Positions 44,710 through 53,769 of a DNA stretch of 64,000 nt are shown here, piece by piece. The position numbers were made by a program, and so were the translations under genes. Origin of the DNA: Granulosicoccus antarcticus IMCC3135 (GTDB taxonomy: Bacteria > Pseudomonadota > Gammaproteobacteria > Granulosicoccales > Granulosicoccaceae). Under the pieces are notes generated by a model. It was not told the DNA's origin and searched no databases. It worked only from the letters and a program-made list of their open reading frames with translations. Location of the stretch: the NCBI RefSeq assembly GCF_002215215.1, contig NZ_CP018632.1, positions 1,196,001-1,260,000 on the forward strand, written 5' to 3'. The first letter of the stretch is position 1, and the number at the start of each line of letters is the position of its first letter.

Positions 44710-44738
44710 TTGACACTGGCCAGCTCAATTCCAATAAT
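44710..44738 (+). promoter_or_regulatory. Strong promoter of the cobalamin-riboswitch transcript
   Basis: A perfect TTGACA (44710-44715), 17-bp spacer and AATAAT (44733-44738) form a near-consensus sigma-70 promoter. Transcription would start near 44745, about 30 nt before the aptamer. Confidence 0.8.
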
Positions 44739-44754: not shown

Positions 44755-45010
44755 TTGTGTTACGCCCTTGAATCGTGATGGTTCTTGAGTCGCTTCGGCG
44801 GCTCGGGATGAAAAGGGAACATGGTGCGATCGTTGTCAGAATCGATTCCGTTCAAACCCATGACTGCCCCCGCAACTGTAAACGGTAAGCTGTTTCGAAC
44901 AATCCCACTGGGTAATATCTCGGGAAAGGCGAAGTAGCGGTGAACCGTGAGTCAGGAGACCTGCCATCACAAGCAAACTCAATCCGGGCGGGGTGACCCC
45001 GGGCAGGAGC
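44755..45010 (+). ncRNA. Cobalamin (B12) riboswitch
   Basis: The core is recognisable: A-A-A-A-G-G-G-A-A (44811-44819), GACTGCCCCCGCAACTGTA (44862-44880), CCACTGGG (44905-44912), GGGAAAGGCG (44922-44931) and the B12 box CAGGAGACCTGCC (44953-44965). P1 pairs GTGATGG (44775-44781) with CCATCAC (44964-44970). It binds a cobalamin, usually lowering expression of the downstream gene. The region 44971-45010 has a CGGGG-TGA-CCCCG hairpin and an AGGAG ribosome site and probably acts on translation. This explains most of the 300-base space between the aminopeptidase and the small ORFs. Confidence 0.96.
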
Positions 45011-45016
45011 ACTGTA

Positions 45017-45091
45017 ATGAAAGTATGTGTCCAACGACTTATCCGGTTTTGCCTGGTGCAAGAACCACCTTCTCTACGGAGTGCATCATGA
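45017..45091 (+). CDS. Short leader ORF after the cobalamin riboswitch
   Basis: A 24-codon frame begins at ATG 45017, seven bases after an AGGAG ribosome site, and stops at TGA 45089-45091, which overlaps the ATG of the next gene (ATGA). It has the best ribosome site in the region. It may serve only to couple translation of the 103-residue protein to the riboswitch. The peptide has no recognisable motif. Confidence 0.45.
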   Translation: MKVCVQRLIRFCLVQEPPSLRSAS

Positions 45092-45399
45092 GTCTGGACA
45101 ATATCCTGCTAAGACTGACAGAGCCGCTGGAGTCACGAGAGGATGCCCTTGTGCTTGGACGCATGGGATTTCTTGAGTGGCTGGTTTCGGTGCCGGATGA
45201 AGGCGATTTCACTCAGCAGGCGGAGCTGGCGCATGAACGGGCAGCACCACTGAAGTTGTCAGTACCGGCCATCAGTGTTTTTTGCGATCTTTTGCTGGAA
45301 GCTGCACTCAATACGACTGGTTCGGAGGAGCGATCGGGGCGAAAGAATTCCCGTATTAACCGACGTACAGGCGCTCCACGACGACGAACATTGCATTAA
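45088..45399 (+). CDS. Unrecognised small protein under a cobalamin riboswitch
   Basis: The 103-residue protein starts at 45088 (CGGAG upstream, ATGA overlap with the leader). Residues 1-80 look alpha-helical and amphipathic, with no signal peptide and no membrane helix. The last 25 residues are strongly basic (R-S-G-R-K-N-S-R-I-N-R-R), which could bind nucleic acid. I do not recognise a family, and nothing resembles known B12 enzymes, transporters or CbtB. An alternative in-frame ATG at 45025 would add 21 residues. It is the only gene between the riboswitch and a terminator-like hairpin. Confidence 0.65.
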   Translation: MSLDNILLRLTEPLESREDALVLGRMGFLEWLVSVPDEGDFTQQAELAHERAAPLKLSVPAISVFCDLLLEAALNTTGSEERSGRKNSRINRRTGAPRRRTLH

Positions 45400-45407
45400 T
45401 CATTGCG

Positions 45408-45430
45408 CGCCCCCCCCAGGGAGGGGGCGT
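45408..45430 (+). terminator. GC-rich hairpin after the riboswitch ORF
   Basis: CGCCCCC (45408-45414) pairs with GGGGGCG (45423-45429) nine bases past the stop. The following TCGTT is a poor U-run, so termination strength is uncertain, but it marks the end of the riboswitch transcript. Confidence 0.55.
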
Positions 45431-45511: not shown

Positions 45512-46459
45512 TCAGCGTCGAGCGGCGGCGCGGCGCTTTTGCAGTAGCCCGGTCCAGTCTTTGGTACCTATATAGCGCGGTACCACAGCATCGAGTGAAG
45601 TTGGCTGGCGAGGGCAGTTGTCACCACAGACGCTAGGCGTTTGCAGGCTCTGGTAATTGTCACGGCTGAACGGTTTGCCAGGAACATATTCCATGACTCT
45701 GGCTTGCATTCTGGATGCCCAGTCAGGCAGGCCGATGATGGTGCGGGACAGGCCGGCCGTATCCGCAGTGTATTGCACCAGTTCGCGCAAGGTGTAGTCT
45801 TTCGGGCCACACAGTTTGATGGTAGAGCTGATAGCCGCAGGGTCATCAATGGAATCGATCATCACCTGGCAGACGTCGCCGACGAAGACAGGGGCCATCT
45901 TTGCATCCGGGACTGCCAGCGGAAAGATGGGTAGGGCTCGTAGCAAGCCTGCGAATCTGTTGAAGAAGGCATCGTGCTCACCAAAGATGATGGAAGGCTG
46001 AAAGATAGTCCAATCAACACTACTCTGGCTGTTGCGTACCAGCTCTTCGGCCTGTCCTTTGGTCCGCAGGTATTCGCTGCTGCCGTTTTCCGCATCGGCG
46101 TTCAGGGCGCCCATGTGCAGATAGCGCTGTACGCCAGCTGCTGCGCAGGCTGCGAGTACTTTTTCTGTCAAACCTGAGTGTGCACTTGCAAAACTGTTTT
46201 TTGATTTGTTGCCGCCTTCATTGAGAATGCCAATCAGATTGATAACGGCGGTGGAGCCTGCAATTGCCTCATTCAGCGCGGCTGCATCGTGAACATTAAC
46301 CTCTCGAACATGCACATTTGACAGCGTGCGAAGTGATCTGACATGTTGTGCACGGCGCGTCAATACCACCACTTCATCATAGGTCTGCGCCAGGCGATAG
46401 GTCAGCTGAGAGCCGACAAAGCCTGATCCACCCAACAAGGTAATGCGACGATTGCTCAT
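45512..46459 (-). CDS. NDUFA9-like NAD(P)-binding SDR-family protein
   Basis: The 315-residue atypical short-chain dehydrogenase begins with G-G-S-G-F-V-G-S, the Rossmann nucleotide motif, and has the N-L-I-G-I-L-N-E-G and R-Y-L-H-M-G-A-L motifs of the complex I NDUFA9 subfamily. The catalytic Y-x-x-x-K is modified (Y-L-R-T-K), so a Tyr-Lys pair is kept. Bacterial members are of unknown function, perhaps quinone-related. A start at 46555 is possible but gives a tail without family match. Confidence 0.78.
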   Translation of the reverse strand: MSNRRITLLGGSGFVGSQLTYRLAQTYDEVVVLTRRAQHVRSLRTLSNVHVREVNVHDAAALNEAIAGSTAVINLIGILNEGGNKSKNSFASAHSGLTEKVLAACAAAGVQRYLHMGALNADAENGSSEYLRTKGQAEELVRNSQSSVDWTIFQPSIIFGEHDAFFNRFAGLLRALPIFPLAVPDAKMAPVFVGDVCQVMIDSIDDPAAISSTIKLCGPKDYTLRELVQYTADTAGLSRTIIGLPDWASRMQARVMEYVPGKPFSRDNYQSLQTPSVCGDNCPRQPTSLDAVVPRYIGTKDWTGLLQKRRAAARR

Positions 46460-46585: not shown

Positions 46586-46678
46586 TTATGGACCCGCAAG
46601 ATTTTTCTGGGTGGCGTCTGTGTCGAGTTCTCGCCATAGTAGACGCCATCAGTGCATCCCTGCTAAAGCTCATTGCCT

Positions 46679-49600
46679 ATGTCAGTACTTCCGGAATTCG
46701 AAAACCACGCCGAGCAGACAGTCAAGATGACTACCTGCTATATGTGCGCGTGCCGGTGTGGTATCAAGGTGACCATGGAGGGCGAAGAGATTCGTTTTAT
46801 CCAGGGTAATCCCAAACACCCGGTCAACAAGGGTGTGCTGTGTGCCAAAGGTAATGCCGGCATCATGAAGCAGAAGTCGCCTGCCAAGCTGACGCAGCCG
46901 CTGGTCAGAAAGGCTGGCACCGAGCGCGGGGATGGCGAGTTTGAGCCGATTTCCTGGGACAAGGCTTTGACATTGTTGACGGAACGGCTGCGCAAGATCC
47001 GTGCACATGACCCCAAGCGTCTGGCGTTCTTCACCGGGCGTGACCAGATGCAGGCCTTGACCGGATTCTGGGCATCGCAGTTCGGCACCATCAACTGGGC
47101 GGCTCACGGGGGCTTTTGCTCGGTGAACATGGCGGCTGGTGGTCTGTACATGACAGGCCAGTCCTTCTGGGAATTCGGTGATCCGGATTGGGATCATGCA
47201 AAATATTTTATGTTGTGGGGCGTTGCAGAAGATCACGCCTCCAATCCCATCAAGATCGGCCTGGAAAAGCTCAAGCGCCGCGGGGCCAAGTTTGTTGCCA
47301 TCAATCCGGTACGCACCGGTTATCAGGCGATTGCTGATGAGTGGATTGGCATTCGTCCCGGTACGGATGGCTTGCTGGCACTGTCGTTCGCGCATGTATT
47401 GCTCAAGAACGATCAGTTCGATTGGGAATTTCTCAGCCGCTATACCAATGCCACACAACTGGTCATTGATGCACCGGGCACATCGCAGAACGGCTTATTG
47501 CTGCGTGATGAGTCCGAAGCATTGCAGGTCTGGGACCAGACTACGGACAGCGTGGCGTCCTGGCTTGAATCCAGTCACGATAACGATGTCGAAGCAGCTC
47601 TGTTCGGGGAATACACCACGGCTAAGGGAGTGCGCGTCAAAACGGTCATGACGCTGCTGGCGGAAAAGTATCTGAGCGAGGAATATGCGCCGGAGAATGT
47701 GGCAGCCACCGTGGGTGTTGATGCTGCAACTATCGAACGTCTGGCACTGGAAATGGCGCATGTGGCTTTCAAGGAGAGCATCACGATAGAGACTCCATGG
47801 ACTGACTGGACCGGGCGCCGGCACGAGAGGTTCATCGGAAGACCCGTCGCCATGCATGCCATGCGCGGTATATCAGCACATTCGAATGGTTTCCAGACTT
47901 GCCGTTCCATTCATCTGCTGCAAGTGTTGCTGGGTGCGGTGGACAGCCCCGGTTCGCATCTGGCCAAACCGCCTTTCCCCAAGCATATTGCCCCGCCGAT
48001 CAAGCCGGCGAAGTCCATGGCACCGGATACGCCCTTGTCGTCGCCGCCGCTGGGGTTTCCCATGGGGCCTGAGGATCTGGTCATTGATGCCAATGGCGAA
48101 CCACTACGAATTGACAAGGCCTACTCCTGGGAGGCGCCCATTGCCAACCATGGCATGATGCATATGGTCATCAACAATGCGGTCAAGGGTGATCCGTATC
48201 CAATTGATACGCTGATTCTCTTCATGGCGAACATGTCGTGGAATTCGAGCATGAATACCGCAGAAGTACAGGACATGCTGCGGGAGAAGGATGAATACGG
48301 CGATTACAAATTGCCCTTCATCGTGACCAGTGATGCTTTCCATTCCGAGATGGTGAACTACTCGGATCTGGTGCTGCCGGACACCACCTACCTGGAGCGC
48401 TTCGATACGATCTCCATGCTGGACCGGCCGATCTCGGAGGCTCACTCAGCCTGTGATGCTATTCGTCAGCCCATTGTGGCGCTGGATCGGGACGTCAGGC
48501 CCTGGCAGGAAGTGCTGGTGGATATCGGCACACGGTTGGGTTTTCCTGCTTTGACAAACCCTGATGGCGGGGCGAAGTTCAAGGACTACAAGGATTTCAT
48601 CACCAACTGGGAAAAAGCACCGGGGATTGGCTTTCTGGCTGGCTGGCGTGGCGAGAATGGTGATGAGCATATGGTTGGTGCCCCCAATCCGGATCAATGG
48701 CAGGCTTATCAGGACAACGACTGTTTCTTTGAGCATCATCTGCCACCAGAGCAACGCTACTACCGCTTTGCCAACAAGGATTATCTGGAGTGGGCTAAAA
48801 GCGTTGGCTTCAATGGCCATAGTGGTCCTATCGTCATGGAGCTGTATTCAGAGGTCGTGCAGAAATTTCGATTGGCAGGGCAGGGCTTATATGACGGACC
48901 TTTGCCAAAGCATGAAGTCGACAAGCAAAGGCTGGTGCAGTACTTCGATCCCTTGCCGTGCTGGTATGTGCCTTTGGAAGAGCAGCGCGTAGATAATCAG
49001 AAGTATCCCTTCCATGCCGTCAATCAGCGACCCATGTTCATGTATCACTCCTGGGATTCGCAGAATGCCTGGCTGCGACAGATCATGGCGCAGAACTATC
49101 TGTACATGAACCGTGAACGTGGCGAGGCCTTGGGTATTCATGATCTGGCGTGGGTATGGGTGGAAAGCCATCACGGCAAGATCCGCTGTCAGATCAAGCT
49201 GATGGAAGGTTGTAATCCTGATACGGTATGGACCTGGAATGCCATCGGCAAGCAAAGTGGTGCCTGGGGTTTGTCCGACGATGCTCCCGAATCACAAAAG
49301 GCCTTCCTCATGAATCACCTGATCTCCGAACTACTGCCCTCTAAAGAGGGTGAGCGTGGCCTGACCAATTCGGACCCGGTTACCGGGCAGGCGGCCTGGT
49401 ATGACCTGAAAGTGAATGTCACTCTGGCAGCCCCCGGGGAGACTGGGAGTTACCCGACATTTGCATCAATAAAACGTCTGCCGGACATGGCAACACCAGC
49501 TACTGAGCTGCGTTATCACACACACGTACCGGTCAACCTCGAACGCTCCATGGAAGATGCCTTGACCCGGGGACCACTGACTCGCGGAGACAAGCCATGA
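46679..49600 (+). CDS. soeA: Sulfite dehydrogenase molybdopterin subunit SoeA
   Basis: The 973-residue DMSO-reductase-family protein has an N-terminal [4Fe-4S] motif (Cys20, Cys23, Cys27, Cys55), a molybdenum-site segment H-G-G-F-C-S-V-N-M-A-A-G with a candidate Cys ligand, and a C-terminal molybdopterin dinucleotide binding domain. No Tat signal is present, so it should act in the cytoplasm, as known for SoeABC. SoeA oxidises sulfite to sulfate. Gene order SoeA-SoeB-SoeC matches. Substrate is inferred from family; a related oxidoreductase cannot be ruled out. Confidence 0.88.
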   Translation: MSVLPEFENHAEQTVKMTTCYMCACRCGIKVTMEGEEIRFIQGNPKHPVNKGVLCAKGNAGIMKQKSPAKLTQPLVRKAGTERGDGEFEPISWDKALTLLTERLRKIRAHDPKRLAFFTGRDQMQALTGFWASQFGTINWAAHGGFCSVNMAAGGLYMTGQSFWEFGDPDWDHAKYFMLWGVAEDHASNPIKIGLEKLKRRGAKFVAINPVRTGYQAIADEWIGIRPGTDGLLALSFAHVLLKNDQFDWEFLSRYTNATQLVIDAPGTSQNGLLLRDESEALQVWDQTTDSVASWLESSHDNDVEAALFGEYTTAKGVRVKTVMTLLAEKYLSEEYAPENVAATVGVDAATIERLALEMAHVAFKESITIETPWTDWTGRRHERFIGRPVAMHAMRGISAHSNGFQTCRSIHLLQVLLGAVDSPGSHLAKPPFPKHIAPPIKPAKSMAPDTPLSSPPLGFPMGPEDLVIDANGEPLRIDKAYSWEAPIANHGMMHMVINNAVKGDPYPIDTLILFMANMSWNSSMNTAEVQDMLREKDEYGDYKLPFIVTSDAFHSEMVNYSDLVLPDTTYLERFDTISMLDRPISEAHSACDAIRQPIVALDRDVRPWQEVLVDIGTRLGFPALTNPDGGAKFKDYKDFITNWEKAPGIGFLAGWRGENGDEHMVGAPNPDQWQAYQDNDCFFEHHLPPEQRYYRFANKDYLEWAKSVGFNGHSGPIVMELYSEVVQKFRLAGQGLYDGPLPKHEVDKQRLVQYFDPLPCWYVPLEEQRVDNQKYPFHAVNQRPMFMYHSWDSQNAWLRQIMAQNYLYMNRERGEALGIHDLAWVWVESHHGKIRCQIKLMEGCNPDTVWTWNAIGKQSGAWGLSDDAPESQKAFLMNHLISELLPSKEGERGLTNSDPVTGQAAWYDLKVNVTLAAPGETGSYPTFASIKRLPDMATPATELRYHTHVPVNLERSMEDALTRGPLTRGDKP

Positions 49601-50322
49601 AACTCGGTCTGGTTATCGATCTGGACACGTGTGTGGGCTGTCATGCCTGCGCCGTTGCCTGCAAACAATGGAACACGTCCGGCACAACCGGTCCACTGTC
49701 AGACTACGATCCCTATGGCAAGGAACCCAGTGGTGTCTGGTTCAATCGTGTAAGGCACTATGAGGTCGATGACTTTCCCAACAACAAGACCATCAATGCG
49801 CCCATGTCCTGCATGCATTGTGAGGATGCTGCCTGCGTAACCGTCTGCCCGACGGGGGCCTCCTACAAGCGTGAAGAGGATGGCATCGTATTAGTGGATC
49901 AATCAAAGTGCATGGGTTGTAATTTGTGTGCCTGGGCCTGTCCTTATGGCGCCCGAGAGCTGGACGAAAACGAAGGTGTCATGAAGAAATGCACCTTGTG
50001 TGTCGATCGCATCCACGACCAGAAACTGCCGGAGGAAGAGCGACAGCCTGCCTGCGTTCTGACCTGTCCCACTCATGCCAGATTTTTCGGCGACTTCGAT
50101 GACCCCGATTCGCAAGTCAGCACTCTGGTCAGGGAGCGCGGCGGTTATGCGATGATGCCAGAGCTGGGTTATGAGCCCACCAACAAGTACCTGCCGCCCC
50201 GACAAAGACCTGCTGCGCCCACGGTCGAAAAGCAAGCTGAGGCTTCGGGAGAGTCGCTCATTGGCAAGTGGATGAAACGTCAGAAAGAGGCGTTCAACAG
50301 CCTTGGTAAAGGAGCACGCTGA
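49597..50322 (+). CDS. soeB: Sulfite dehydrogenase iron-sulfur subunit SoeB
   Basis: The 241-residue protein has four ferredoxin-type cysteine clusters: C-V-G-C-H-A-C-A-V-A-C, C-M-H-C...C-V-T-V-C-P, C-M-G-C-N-L-C-A-W-A-C-P and C-T-L-C...C-V-L-T-C-P. These should hold four [4Fe-4S] clusters as in DmsB-type subunits. It carries electrons from SoeA to the SoeC membrane anchor. The start overlaps the end of soeA by 4 bp. Confidence 0.93.
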   Translation: MKLGLVIDLDTCVGCHACAVACKQWNTSGTTGPLSDYDPYGKEPSGVWFNRVRHYEVDDFPNNKTINAPMSCMHCEDAACVTVCPTGASYKREEDGIVLVDQSKCMGCNLCAWACPYGARELDENEGVMKKCTLCVDRIHDQKLPEEERQPACVLTCPTHARFFGDFDDPDSQVSTLVRERGGYAMMPELGYEPTNKYLPPRQRPAAPTVEKQAEASGESLIGKWMKRQKEAFNSLGKGAR

Positions 50323-51254
50323 TGCATCCGGCACTGTCTGTTATCTTCTTCACGGTCACCGCTGGCACCGGCTATGGCGTGCTATTCCTGTTGGGTCTTA
50401 TCCGCATTCTGGGTATGGTTCCCGAGATGAGCCCGGATCAGATCGTCACCATGGGCCTGGTGGGTCTGGTACTGATCACGGTCGGACTCCTGTCATCCAC
50501 CTTGCACCTGTCCAACCCGAAAAATGCCTGGCGATCGTTCACGCGTTTCAAAACATCCTGGTTGTCACGCGAGGCAGTCTTTGCAGTGACCTTCTATCCG
50601 ATCTGCCTGCTATGGATGGCATGCGAATGGTTTACTGGTCACACGGCGGCCTCCATTGTATTTGGTGTGCTTACCGCAGGTCTTGCCATTACTGTGCTGG
50701 TTTGCACGAGTATGATCTACGCATCGTTGAAAACGATACGTCAGTGGCATACCCCTATGACCCCTGTTAATTTTGTACTACTGGGAATATTGCTGGGGTC
50801 CTTGTTTCTGAGTCTGATGCTGGCACAGCAGTCTCTATTGACCTCCCATCTGCTGTCCTTGTCATTGGTGCTGTTAGTGTTGTCAGCTCTGGCGAAAATT
50901 GTCTATTTCTACTGGATTGGCCAGCCGGCTGGGCCAACCATCAATACGGCGCTGGGCTTCACCCGTGCAACGGTTCGCTTGCTGGACGTTGGCCATAGCA
51001 GTGATACCTTTCATAATAAGGAATTTGCTTACCAGGTCGATCGCGTCAAGCTGATCTGGCTTCGACATATCAGTATCGGACTTGCATTCTTGCTGCCCTT
51101 GGCTCTGATTCGCGGGCCATTGGATAGTGTCGGGTTTTTTAATCTGACACTGGCTTTTATCAGTGCCTATGCCGGCGTATTCGTGGAGCGCTGGTTGTTT
51201 TTCGCAGAGGCGCGACATGTCGTGAATCTGTATCACGGTATGCAGCGCACCTGA
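50322..51254 (+). CDS. soeC: Sulfite dehydrogenase membrane anchor SoeC (DmsC family)
   Basis: The 310-residue protein has eight predicted membrane helices and fits DmsC-type quinone-reactive anchors. It should pass electrons to the quinone pool. TGATG links it to soeB. The last gene of soeABC, it is followed after 15 bp by apbE. Confidence 0.9.
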   Translation: MHPALSVIFFTVTAGTGYGVLFLLGLIRILGMVPEMSPDQIVTMGLVGLVLITVGLLSSTLHLSNPKNAWRSFTRFKTSWLSREAVFAVTFYPICLLWMACEWFTGHTAASIVFGVLTAGLAITVLVCTSMIYASLKTIRQWHTPMTPVNFVLLGILLGSLFLSLMLAQQSLLTSHLLSLSLVLLVLSALAKIVYFYWIGQPAGPTINTALGFTRATVRLLDVGHSSDTFHNKEFAYQVDRVKLIWLRHISIGLAFLLPLALIRGPLDSVGFFNLTLAFISAYAGVFVERWLFFAEARHVVNLYHGMQRT

Positions 51255-51269
51255 GTTGGCCCGAAAGGC

Positions 51270-52160
51270 ATGAAAGAGCTGCAAATAGAGCAGCGTGGCA
51301 GTGTCTGGGTCGGTGTGTTCCGGGCTATGGCCAGTCCCTGTGAAATTCATATTGAGCTGCGCTCGCGAAAGCGCGCAGCGCAGCTTATGGCACTGGCGCA
51401 GAAGGAGGCGCTGCGCATCGAGCGTCTGTTCAGTCGCTACCGTGATGACAACGTGATTCACCGTATCAACACGGCGGCCGGCAGGAGTGTGACGGTGGAT
51501 TCTGAAACCGCTCGCATGCTGGATTTTGCCGATCAGTGTTTCACTCTTTCCGAAGGGCTCTTTGATGTGACTTCCGGTCTGTTGCGCAAGGCCTGGAATT
51601 TCGATGGATCGGACCGTGTGCCGACGATGGCTGCAGTGGATGCGCTATTGCCCCAGGTGGGTTGGCAGCAGGTAAGCTGGTCAGAGCCGCATTTCACACT
51701 GCCTGATGGAATGCAGATAGATCTGGGTGGGATCGGCAAGGAGTATGCCGTTGATCGTACCGTCTCATTGCTCAATGAGCACTGTCAGGCCCCGTTTCTG
51801 GTCAACTTTGGTGGTGACCTGCATGCCTTGCGTTCGCCTGTTACCGCCCAGGGCTGGCGCGTAGGTATCGAGGCAAGCCGAGGTGGTAGTAGCGATGCCT
51901 TGCACAGCATTTTGCTGGAACGGGGCGCCTTGACCACCAGCGGAGATGCCCGTCGATACCTGCTCAAGGACGGTGTACGTTACGGACATGTTCTGAACCC
52001 GAAGACAGGATGGCCGGTGGAAGGTGCTCCAGCGTCGGTTACCGTGGCTGGTAATACCTGCACCGAGGCCGGTATTCTCTCAACGCTAGCCATTTTGCAT
52101 GGCAACGAGGCTGAGTCGTTTCTGGAGGATCAGGGCGTGCGGTACTGGGTACAGCGCTAG
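51270..52160 (+). CDS. apbE: FAD:protein FMN transferase ApbE
   Basis: The 296-residue protein has family motifs F-R-A-M-A-S-P-C-E near the N-terminus, the D-L-G-G-I-G-K-E-Y-A-V-D-R motif and T-S-G-D-A-R-R-Y, H-V-L-N-P-K-T-G. ApbE transfers FMN from FAD onto Thr or Ser of target proteins. The metal-binding C-terminal region reads T-E-A-G rather than the more common D-A-x, a mild deviation. Unusually, no signal peptide or lipobox is seen, although the best candidate target here is exported. It is 15 bp after soeC. Confidence 0.92.
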   Translation: MKELQIEQRGSVWVGVFRAMASPCEIHIELRSRKRAAQLMALAQKEALRIERLFSRYRDDNVIHRINTAAGRSVTVDSETARMLDFADQCFTLSEGLFDVTSGLLRKAWNFDGSDRVPTMAAVDALLPQVGWQQVSWSEPHFTLPDGMQIDLGGIGKEYAVDRTVSLLNEHCQAPFLVNFGGDLHALRSPVTAQGWRVGIEASRGGSSDALHSILLERGALTTSGDARRYLLKDGVRYGHVLNPKTGWPVEGAPASVTVAGNTCTEAGILSTLAILHGNEAESFLEDQGVRYWVQR

Positions 52161-52264
52161 CGTTAATTGTTGAACGAAGCCTGAGGCTCAATGGTTTTTT
52201 GACTGGCGTGCATTCTGCTAGGTAAGGGCTCTACCGCGACTTGCCGATGAGGCAGGGTATTGTC

Positions 52265-52552
52265 ATGCCAAGGCCCCAGTGTGAATCTCCGTTTTTCTCA
52301 GAACTGCTCCGGAAAGCCTTTCGTCATTTTTTAATAGCGGCTGTGATGCTACCGCTGGCGTCGTGTTCTGTTGTTGGTGACATCGTTAACGTCGATGAGG
52401 TCAAGCCCTGGCAGCGAGGTGTTCTGGCGCGTGACGATATGCAGTTGATCAATGATGCGCTGGAACAAAGTGTTGATGATCACATCTATTTCTCGCGGGA
52501 GGCCTCCACCGGAGGAGTGAGTATTCAAGGTGGCGGCTGCGGCTGTAACTGA
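52265..52552 (+). CDS. DUF4266 small lipoprotein
   Basis: The 95-residue protein has a basic N-terminus, a hydrophobic stretch and lipobox L-A-S-C (Cys34), so it is probably a lipoprotein. The mature part has the V-K-P-W-Q-R-G-V-L-A-R-D-D-M motif of DUF4266 and ends in G-G-G-C-G-C-N. The double-Cys tail could bind metal or form a disulfide. In many bacteria the family sits next to DUF3570 and ApbE. A start at 52247 is also possible. Confidence 0.85.
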   Translation: MPRPQCESPFFSELLRKAFRHFLIAAVMLPLASCSVVGDIVNVDEVKPWQRGVLARDDMQLINDALEQSVDDHIYFSREASTGGVSIQGGGCGCN

Positions 52553-53769
52553 TGGGGGCTTTGCAACGCCAACTCTCGGTAGCTGCCTGCACCCTGATTA
52601 CTGCGGGCAGTGTGCCGGGTGCCAATGCGGCAGAAAATCCCTGGGAAGCTGATCTATCCTATCTGTCCTATCAGGAAGCTGACGACAGGGTCTCGGTGTC
52701 CAAGACACTGCTCAATCTGCAGCGCGAGACAGACACGGGAAGTCTGACATTGAATCTGGTGCATGACAGCATGTCAGGGGCCTCGCCGACGGGCGCTCTG
52801 AGAGGGGCTGAATCAGCAGACACGGTCACGCGGGTTTCCGGAGAAAGCGGGCAGGGTTATTCGAGAAGCGCGTTCACGGATACGCGTATACAGGCAGGGT
52901 TGCAACTCGAACGCCTGATTACCTCGTCGATTACGCTGAGTGCGGGTGGTGCGATATCAGATGAATCCGATTATGAATCGCAGAGTATCGATCTTGGCAT
53001 TGCCAAAGAATCGACTGACAAGCTGACTACATTCAGCGCGGCGCTGGCATGGACAAACGATACGATTTATCGCAGCGACACCGGTGTCACCCCCGAACCA
53101 CTGGGGAATGTGCAGCAGACACGTTTGTATAGCGAAGGTGAACGTGAGACGGTGGATGCCTTACTGGGTATCAGTCGCGTAGTGAATCGCCAAACCGTCG
53201 CACAGCTGAACCTGGCAATCAGCGCTTCGGATGGATATCACTCGGACCCCTATAAAATCATCAGCGCAGCCGAAGAGAATGGTCGCATCATGGCCAATTT
53301 CCATGATAGCCGTCCCAATTCCCGGTTGCGCACCAGTCTGTTCGGCAAACTGGTCCACCAGCTGGCTGATACAGAAAACTCCATTCATCTGAGTTATCGT
53401 TTTTACCGGGATGACTGGGGAGTTCAATCAAATACCGTCGATGTGCGCTATCGGCACCAGCTGACGGATCGGCAGTACCTTGAACCCCATTTTCGCTGGT
53501 ACCGACAGAATGAAGCTGATTTCTATCAAACCTATCTACCTGTTGACAGCGGTTCAAATCCGCAATTGCCAGAGAATGGACTTGCCAGTGCTGACTACCG
53601 ACTGGATGCGATGCAAAGCACCACCGTCGGCATGAAATACGGCATTTATCTGACTCCCAGGGTCGAGCTGAAGATTCGTGGCGAGTACCTTGACCAAAGC
53701 TTCAGTACTGCAGGTTATGGGGGTAATTCAGCTGTCATTGTTCAGACCAGTATCAACGTAGACTTTTGA
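52552..53769 (+). CDS. DUF3570 outer-membrane beta-barrel protein with flavinylation-like motif
   Basis: The 405-residue protein has a signal peptide (about residues 1-26, A-N-A-A). The rest shows alternating-residue beta strands and ends in a terminal Phe preceded by aromatic/hydrophobic residues (S-I-N-V-D-F), as in outer-membrane barrels. Residues 72-78 read D-S-M-S-G-A-S, which matches the known ApbE target motif D-x-x-(S/T)-G-A-(S/T). Start overlaps DUF4266 (TGATG). I infer a flavinylated outer-membrane protein; function is unknown. Confidence 0.85.
   Translation: MGALQRQLSVAACTLITAGSVPGANAAENPWEADLSYLSYQEADDRVSVSKTLLNLQRETDTGSLTLNLVHDSMSGASPTGALRGAESADTVTRVSGESGQGYSRSAFTDTRIQAGLQLERLITSSITLSAGGAISDESDYESQSIDLGIAKESTDKLTTFSAALAWTNDTIYRSDTGVTPEPLGNVQQTRLYSEGERETVDALLGISRVVNRQTVAQLNLAISASDGYHSDPYKIISAAEENGRIMANFHDSRPNSRLRTSLFGKLVHQLADTENSIHLSYRFYRDDWGVQSNTVDVRYRHQLTDRQYLEPHFRWYRQNEADFYQTYLPVDSGSNPQLPENGLASADYRLDAMQSTTVGMKYGIYLTPRVELKIRGEYLDQSFSTAGYGGNSAVIVQTSINVDF

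Follow-up and report, generated by a model that had tools for sequence, protein, structure and literature searches.

A new family of small proteins encoded behind cobalamin riboswitches in alpha- and gammaproteobacteria

Results

A full-length cobalamin riboswitch precedes a single small gene in Granulosicoccus antarcticus

The window, that is, the whole stretch of DNA that we analysed, comprises 64,000 nucleotides of the Granulosicoccus antarcticus IMCC3135 genome, which is 7.78 Mb long on a single contig. A covariance-model scan identified a complete cobalamin riboswitch (RF00174) at 44762-44982 on the plus strand, scoring 113 bits against a gathering threshold of 31.5 (E 1.6e-27) and spanning model positions 1-189. 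The sequence TTGACA-17-AATAAT at 44710-44738 matches 11 of 12 consensus promoter positions and is the sole predicted promoter of the region (shuffles, 0.5). Both hexamers are conserved in all four Granulosicoccus loci described below. The scan thus agrees with an earlier note on this DNA, which had claimed a full cobalamin riboswitch with a near-consensus promoter. The features of the locus are as follows.

44710-44738, plus strand: sigma-70-type promoter TTGACA-N17-AATAAT, 11/12 consensus
44762-44982, plus strand: cobalamin riboswitch aptamer RF00174, 113 bits, full length
44984-45002, plus strand: expression-platform hairpin CCGGG-CGGGGTGA-CCCGG, from sequence and fold
45005-45009, plus strand: Shine-Dalgarno AGGAG of the leader ORF, 2 nt past the platform hairpin, from sequence
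45017-45091, plus strand: leader ORF of 24 codons, MKVCVQRLIRFCLVQEPPSLRSAS followed by a stop; ATG at 45017, TGA ending at 45091
45078-45081, plus strand: Shine-Dalgarno GGAG of the 103-aa gene, from sequence
45088-45399, plus strand: 103-aa protein P0001, predicted helical core and Arg-rich C-terminal tail
about 45407-45430, plus strand: GC-rich hairpin past the P0001 gene, without a T-tract, from sequence
45512-46459, minus strand: epimerase-like convergent gene that bounds the unit

The G-rich loop of the platform hairpin (CGGGGTG) is complementary to aptamer loop L5 (CCCCCGC), which at the level of sequence is as expected for an L5-L13 kissing loop. Compared with shuffles, the fold of this hairpin is not clearly better on its own (z -0.9). 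The hairpin is also found in the main group of relatives described below, and the placement of the AGGAG ribosome-binding site 2 nt after its stem is conserved there.

No recognised B12 gene lies downstream on the P0001 strand, because the convergent gene ends at 45512. The coordinates therefore confirm the earlier description of a riboswitch followed only by a 24-codon ORF and a 103-residue ORF and then by a gene on the opposite strand. They also uphold the claim that the unit contains no known B12 gene, P0001 itself having no match to a curated family. The hairpin reported after the gene is present at about 45407-45430, but it lacks a T-tract and terminator prediction in the region made no call there.

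The genome contains five other RF00174 copies, which precede nrdHIE, a btuB-type receptor gene, a cobG-like gene, cobO-btuF and BtuC-like genes; these names come from sequence recognition, and only some were tested with profiles. Because these copies stand before nrdHIE, btuB and cob/btu genes, the P0001 riboswitch is the odd one in an otherwise ordinary B12 regulon. A weak cobalamin riboswitch on the minus strand (G000:C1:5358986-5359126, L006), at 34 bits barely over the cut-off, precedes a BtuC-like permease and an ABC ATPase. Elsewhere in the window, positions 46673-53769 encode a molybdopterin oxidoreductase, a 4Fe-4S subunit, an NrfD-like membrane subunit, an ApbE-like flavin transferase and two more genes, all named by eye.

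The riboswitch and the gene occur together within the genus

We searched 57 genomes, 27 of them from the genus, for orthologues of P0001 and found them in G012, G019 and G024 at 55-57% identity. The gene is thus carried by 4 of the 27 Granulosicoccus genomes searched. Each of the three orthologues follows a riboswitch in the corresponding position (126-129 bits) and lies between the same neighbours as P0001. Comparison of the orthologues gives a dN/dS of about 0.2, with third codon positions the most variable, and these two observations support the conclusion that the P0001 ORF is coding.

Where other Granulosicoccus genomes have these neighbours, the two sides adjoin directly and no riboswitch was found between them. 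In G014, for example, about 140 bp separate the flanking genes instead of about 820 bp, and riboswitch and gene are both absent. Since relatives with the same flanks lack both, these data indicate that riboswitch and gene have been gained or lost jointly. The four carriers are also the genus members in which a riboswitch was seen before the cobO locus, and they may constitute a single clade.

P0001 belongs to a family found behind cobalamin riboswitches in two proteobacterial classes

A scan with the single P0001 sequence across one genome per species (84,980 species) gave no match. A profile of the four Granulosicoccus sequences at first matched Granulosicoccus alone, until a phylum-wide search of 398 genomes matched two alphaproteobacteria (E 2e-11 and 6e-8), each with a cobalamin riboswitch ahead of the gene (130 and 140 bits). 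A weak match on a Cereibacter plasmid corresponds to a short hypothetical protein whose gene follows a 127-bit riboswitch; cobyric acid synthase genes and an ABC transporter of the iron/B12 type are encoded close by. The plasmid search for the family returned Cereibacter only.

We then combined the four Granulosicoccus rows with the alphaproteobacterial and Cereibacter plasmid sequences in a profile, A4, which matched 30 of 293 Rhodobacterales genomes from 21 genera. Every one of the 30 matches is behind an RF00174 riboswitch on the same strand. A further profile of 34 rows, A5, matched G340, G098 and G107, representing two more gammaproteobacterial families, and RF00174 is ahead of all three. 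A family member in G1359 has the hallmark motifs of the aptamer upstream, as judged by a sequence-motif check only. When Granulosicoccus rows were compared by hhalign with the main Rhodobacterales rows, the probability was 99.1% (E 4e-19), and with a divergent Rhodobacterales subgroup it was 97.5% (E 5e-12).

Altogether, 39 of 42 matches at E<=1e-3 sit 77-153 nt behind a cobalamin riboswitch, in alpha- and gammaproteobacteria; the count comes from sampled genomes rather than a full census. The 42 are the raw matches of the alpha-informed profiles at this threshold together with the four Granulosicoccus genes and the plasmid gene. Remote homologues were found by protein profile alone and the riboswitch was checked afterwards. 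G1351 encodes a genuine homologue (E 6e-20; L135/L172) with no riboswitch within 1.5 kb and no aptamer motif in 12 kb. Matches in G135 (E 3e-4) and G363 (E 1e-3), which also stand without a riboswitch, look spurious. Weak matches at L046, L100-L102, L140 and L141 are partial, antisense or in the wrong frame, and have no riboswitch. We found no credible domain fusion of the family protein and no phage or viral match.

We regard the link between this family and cobalamin riboswitches as secure. The earlier suggestion that homologues might also lie under cobalamin riboswitches is borne out by these matches. In a tree of aptamers, the Granulosicoccus cassettes group with most Rhodobacterales cassettes and with btuB switches, away from the nrdHIE and cob switches of the same genomes; many forks of this tree are unresolved and the cassettes do not form one clade. 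We conclude that P0001 belongs to a new and as yet unnamed family whose small proteins, of about 80-103 residues, are under riboswitch control and often the sole target of their switch. A description of this family was not found in the titles, abstracts and portions of a few papers that made up our search of the open-access literature.

Family members share a predicted helical core and, in most cases, an arginine-rich tail

P0001 and the scanned family members have no match in Pfam, NCBIfam, PHROGs, PADLOC or PDB. PF17261 (DUF5327) was rejected as the family of P0001 because its hit (E 0.079) was under its cut-off. A 34-row alignment defines a family core, LGxxGFxxWLxxLP, together with an AVxxFCxLL segment, and P0001 carries the conserved core. 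Most members end in an Arg-rich tail, RRRGGARxRR, with RRRRSLH in three Granulosicoccus and an RR that is invariant or nearly so; the G107 member has no basic tail. An AlphaFold model made with four sequences (pLDDT 77) predicts helices at residues 3-10, 17-34, 41-55 and 60-77 and a low-confidence tail. A Foldseek search with this model returned no significant match. The top VIA-align hit (Z 8.3) was a designed protein, which is uninformative for helical bundles.

The earlier note had proposed that a small, basic-tailed protein as the sole regulated gene would be a new type of riboswitch target. This proposal is supported: the protein is small, predicted to be helical, Arg-rich and unannotated, and its homologues share the switch. 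In Granulosicoccus and many Rhodobacterales, the family gene is the only gene that its switch could regulate.

A leader start is conserved between the riboswitch and the gene

Of 35 aligned members, 23 (the window and 22 of 34 others) have a Shine-Dalgarno sequence and leader ATG in this position, compared to a mean of 1.5 and a maximum of 6 in shuffles. The order in the main group is aptamer, platform hairpin, SD-ATG (23 members), 45-78 nt, and gene start. The leader peptides are not conserved, and their phases relative to the gene divide 11/7/5. Several relatives have a leader ATG that shares the frame of the gene, with no stop between the two. Because leader frames are mixed and sometimes in frame with the gene, any coupling is not uniform. 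The leader frame reaches the gene start without a stop in 21 of 23 cases, where shuffles predict 16.5 (42 of 2000 shuffles were as high), and this excess is only suggestive because the members are related.

Immediately before the gene start, GCGCGGAGGGCGC is nearly invariant in most relatives, both alpha- and gammaproteobacterial. Its conservation exceeds what a Shine-Dalgarno sequence requires, and the copy in the window (45065-45090) is degenerate. Local folding is predicted to sequester the gene's own Shine-Dalgarno sequence weakly (0.23 vs 0.30 unpaired). An ATGA stop-start overlap had been pointed out in the earlier note. It is present between the leader and the 103-aa ORF, but it is specific to this genome and is not kept in relatives.

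These data are consistent with a riboswitch that controls the leader ribosome-binding site, with ribosomes from the leader helping to start the 103-aa gene. By analogy, translational coupling from leader to gene is plausible, and the ATGA overlap in the window may be one local form of a leader-driven start.

Neighbouring genes are often linked to B12

At many family loci the next gene is convergent, like in the window, although a simple gene caller was used and the result is approximate. Where neighbours are present, they are often B12-linked. In six genera metH is found within about 4 kb: a split metH is directly downstream of the family gene in G842, G903, G1013 and G1023, metH is about 3 kb away in G920, and it is divergent in G1045. 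Among carriers tested, metH is near the family gene in 6 of the 8 that have metH-type genes. These genes occur in 8 of 24 carriers and in 5 of 20 gene-free Rhodobacterales. Because they are not clearly commoner in carriers, the link to metH is positional only.

A homocysteine S-methyltransferase gene (PF02574) adjoins the family gene in G692 (L143, 4781-5827, minus strand) and G718 (L142, 6375-7493, plus strand). These paralogues are placed apart from metH-like homocysteine-methyltransferase matches elsewhere in the same genomes, and they are possible alternative methionine synthases. The G718 locus (L142, 5991-11707) consists of the riboswitch, the small gene, the homocysteine methyltransferase, a second cobalamin riboswitch and nrdI-nrdE-nrdF. 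Class Ib RNR is under a B12 switch in G718, likewise in Granulosicoccus (L001, L077, L080).

Other neighbours vary. A BtuF-like protein (PF01497) is encoded 23 nt downstream of the family gene in G814 and G890, cobO is nearby in G1023, and CbiM is nearby in G1010. Rieske/ferredoxin-reductase pairs resembling gbcAB are near the family gene in G842 and G920, with a riboswitch of their own in G920. At L113 (1047-1242, minus strand) and L150 (3134-5468, minus strand), a cobalamin riboswitch precedes a Rieske oxygenase and ferredoxin-reductase pair similar to the glycine betaine demethylase GbcAB. The GbcAB-like pair is a candidate B12-independent isozyme under B12 repression.

Discussion

A model for the riboswitch and its target

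The explanation that we favor, with moderate confidence, is that a B12-off riboswitch controls one gene whose product acts in the B12-starvation response. From the riboswitch class, we infer by analogy that B12 represses the P0001 unit. When B12 is bound, the platform hairpin at 44984-45002 would kiss aptamer L5 and mask the ribosome-binding site of the leader. Under B12 scarcity, the leader would be translated and ribosomes would reach the start of the 103-aa gene, here via the ATGA overlap. The protein would thus be produced chiefly during B12 shortage. Our best guess is that P0001 plays an accessory or regulatory part in the response to B12 starvation, perhaps in connection with methionine synthesis or else with other enzymes that depend on B12 or replace it. 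The methionine link is the weakest part of this explanation.

What such a factor might do can be pictured in several ways. P0001 could be a nucleic-acid-binding regulator whose Arg-rich tail binds RNA or DNA and retunes the transcripts of B12-dependent and B12-replacing enzymes, sparing B12 by a logic like that of iron sparing. We regard this reading as tentative. It would account for the conserved basic C-terminus on a predicted helical core, and the frequently solitary position of the family gene under its riboswitch is what a trans-acting factor would lead one to expect. Against it, known nucleic-acid-binding families are unmatched, ribosome- or membrane-associated proteins carry basic tails too, and the G107 member lacks the tail. 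It is doubtful that P0001 instead helps methionine synthase under B12 limitation, structurally or catalytically, for example by acting on its homocysteine-methyltransferase module. Seven genera do have metH or a homocysteine S-methyltransferase near the gene, but in Granulosicoccus and most Rhodobacterales metH lies far from the gene, and metH-type genes are about as common without it. A Phaeobacter fitness study lists five genes of methionine synthesis, with no such protein among them (PMC5764234), which would count against the helper role only if Phaeobacter has a homologue.

The two remaining alternatives question the gene itself. It is improbable that the main product is the leader peptide, or an N-terminally extended protein that starts at the leader ATG, rather than the 103-aa protein as drawn. 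The in-frame, stop-free leaders of several relatives are what one would then expect, but the leader is out of frame here and in most others, its peptide is not conserved, and the gene has its own Shine-Dalgarno sequence, while the surroundings of its start are strongly conserved in most relatives. We consider it very improbable that the riboswitch is a decayed or duplicated copy with an incidental ORF downstream. The gene is small, has no known domain and is confined to 4 of 27 Granulosicoccus genomes searched; however, the low dN/dS, the retention of the switch at a short distance by nearly all matches, and the conserved platform hairpin and start region all disfavor this reading.

Returning to a B12-off riboswitch that controls a factor of the starvation response, a more specific and rather unlikely form is that the family is a dedicated trans-acting regulator, which reallocates scarce B12 or switches cells to B12-independent enzymes. 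The riboswitch would then govern a regulator instead of an enzyme or transporter.

Comparison with known systems

Some family members adjoin metH-type or homocysteine methyltransferase genes, which recalls the split methionine synthase and MtgBCDE systems of Rhodobacteraceae (PMC5764234, PMC12478193). The P0001 family is not among the named MtgBCDE or split-MetH subunits, and the small protein is unmentioned in the searched passages of these papers.

A parallel in layout is ppe2 of M. tuberculosis, where a uORF controlled by a B12 riboswitch has an AUGA overlap and was found experimentally to be essential for expression (PMC11260477). Both systems have a riboswitch, a short uORF with a Shine-Dalgarno sequence and AUG, and a downstream protein of uncertain function; an AUGA overlap is seen in the window too, but relatives of P0001 do not keep it. 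As described there, ppe2 has no Shine-Dalgarno sequence of its own, is preceded by a class IIb riboswitch variant, and heads a ppe2-cobQ/U operon. In contrast, the P0001 gene has its own GGAG (GCGCGGAGGGCGC in most relatives) and no B12 gene follows. The P0001 family also keeps the leader start, not its frame.

In Sun et al. 2013 (PMC3766115), genes regulated by cobalamin riboswitches fall into B12 synthesis, transport of B12 or its precursors, cobalt transport, isozymes of B12 enzymes, and a miscellaneous remainder. The aptamer is standard and full length in both those regulons and ours, whereas by family matching P0001 cannot be placed in the synthesis, transport, cobalt or isozyme class. 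The carrier lineages include marine heterotrophs that make, take up and trade B12, and, given the close genomic association, cultivable Rhodobacterales offer a direct test of the question. The named target classes of cobalamin riboswitches are enzymes and transporters. A conserved protein without annotation that is tied to such switches in alpha- and gammaproteobacteria, often as their sole target, points to a component of the bacterial B12 economy that has been overlooked.
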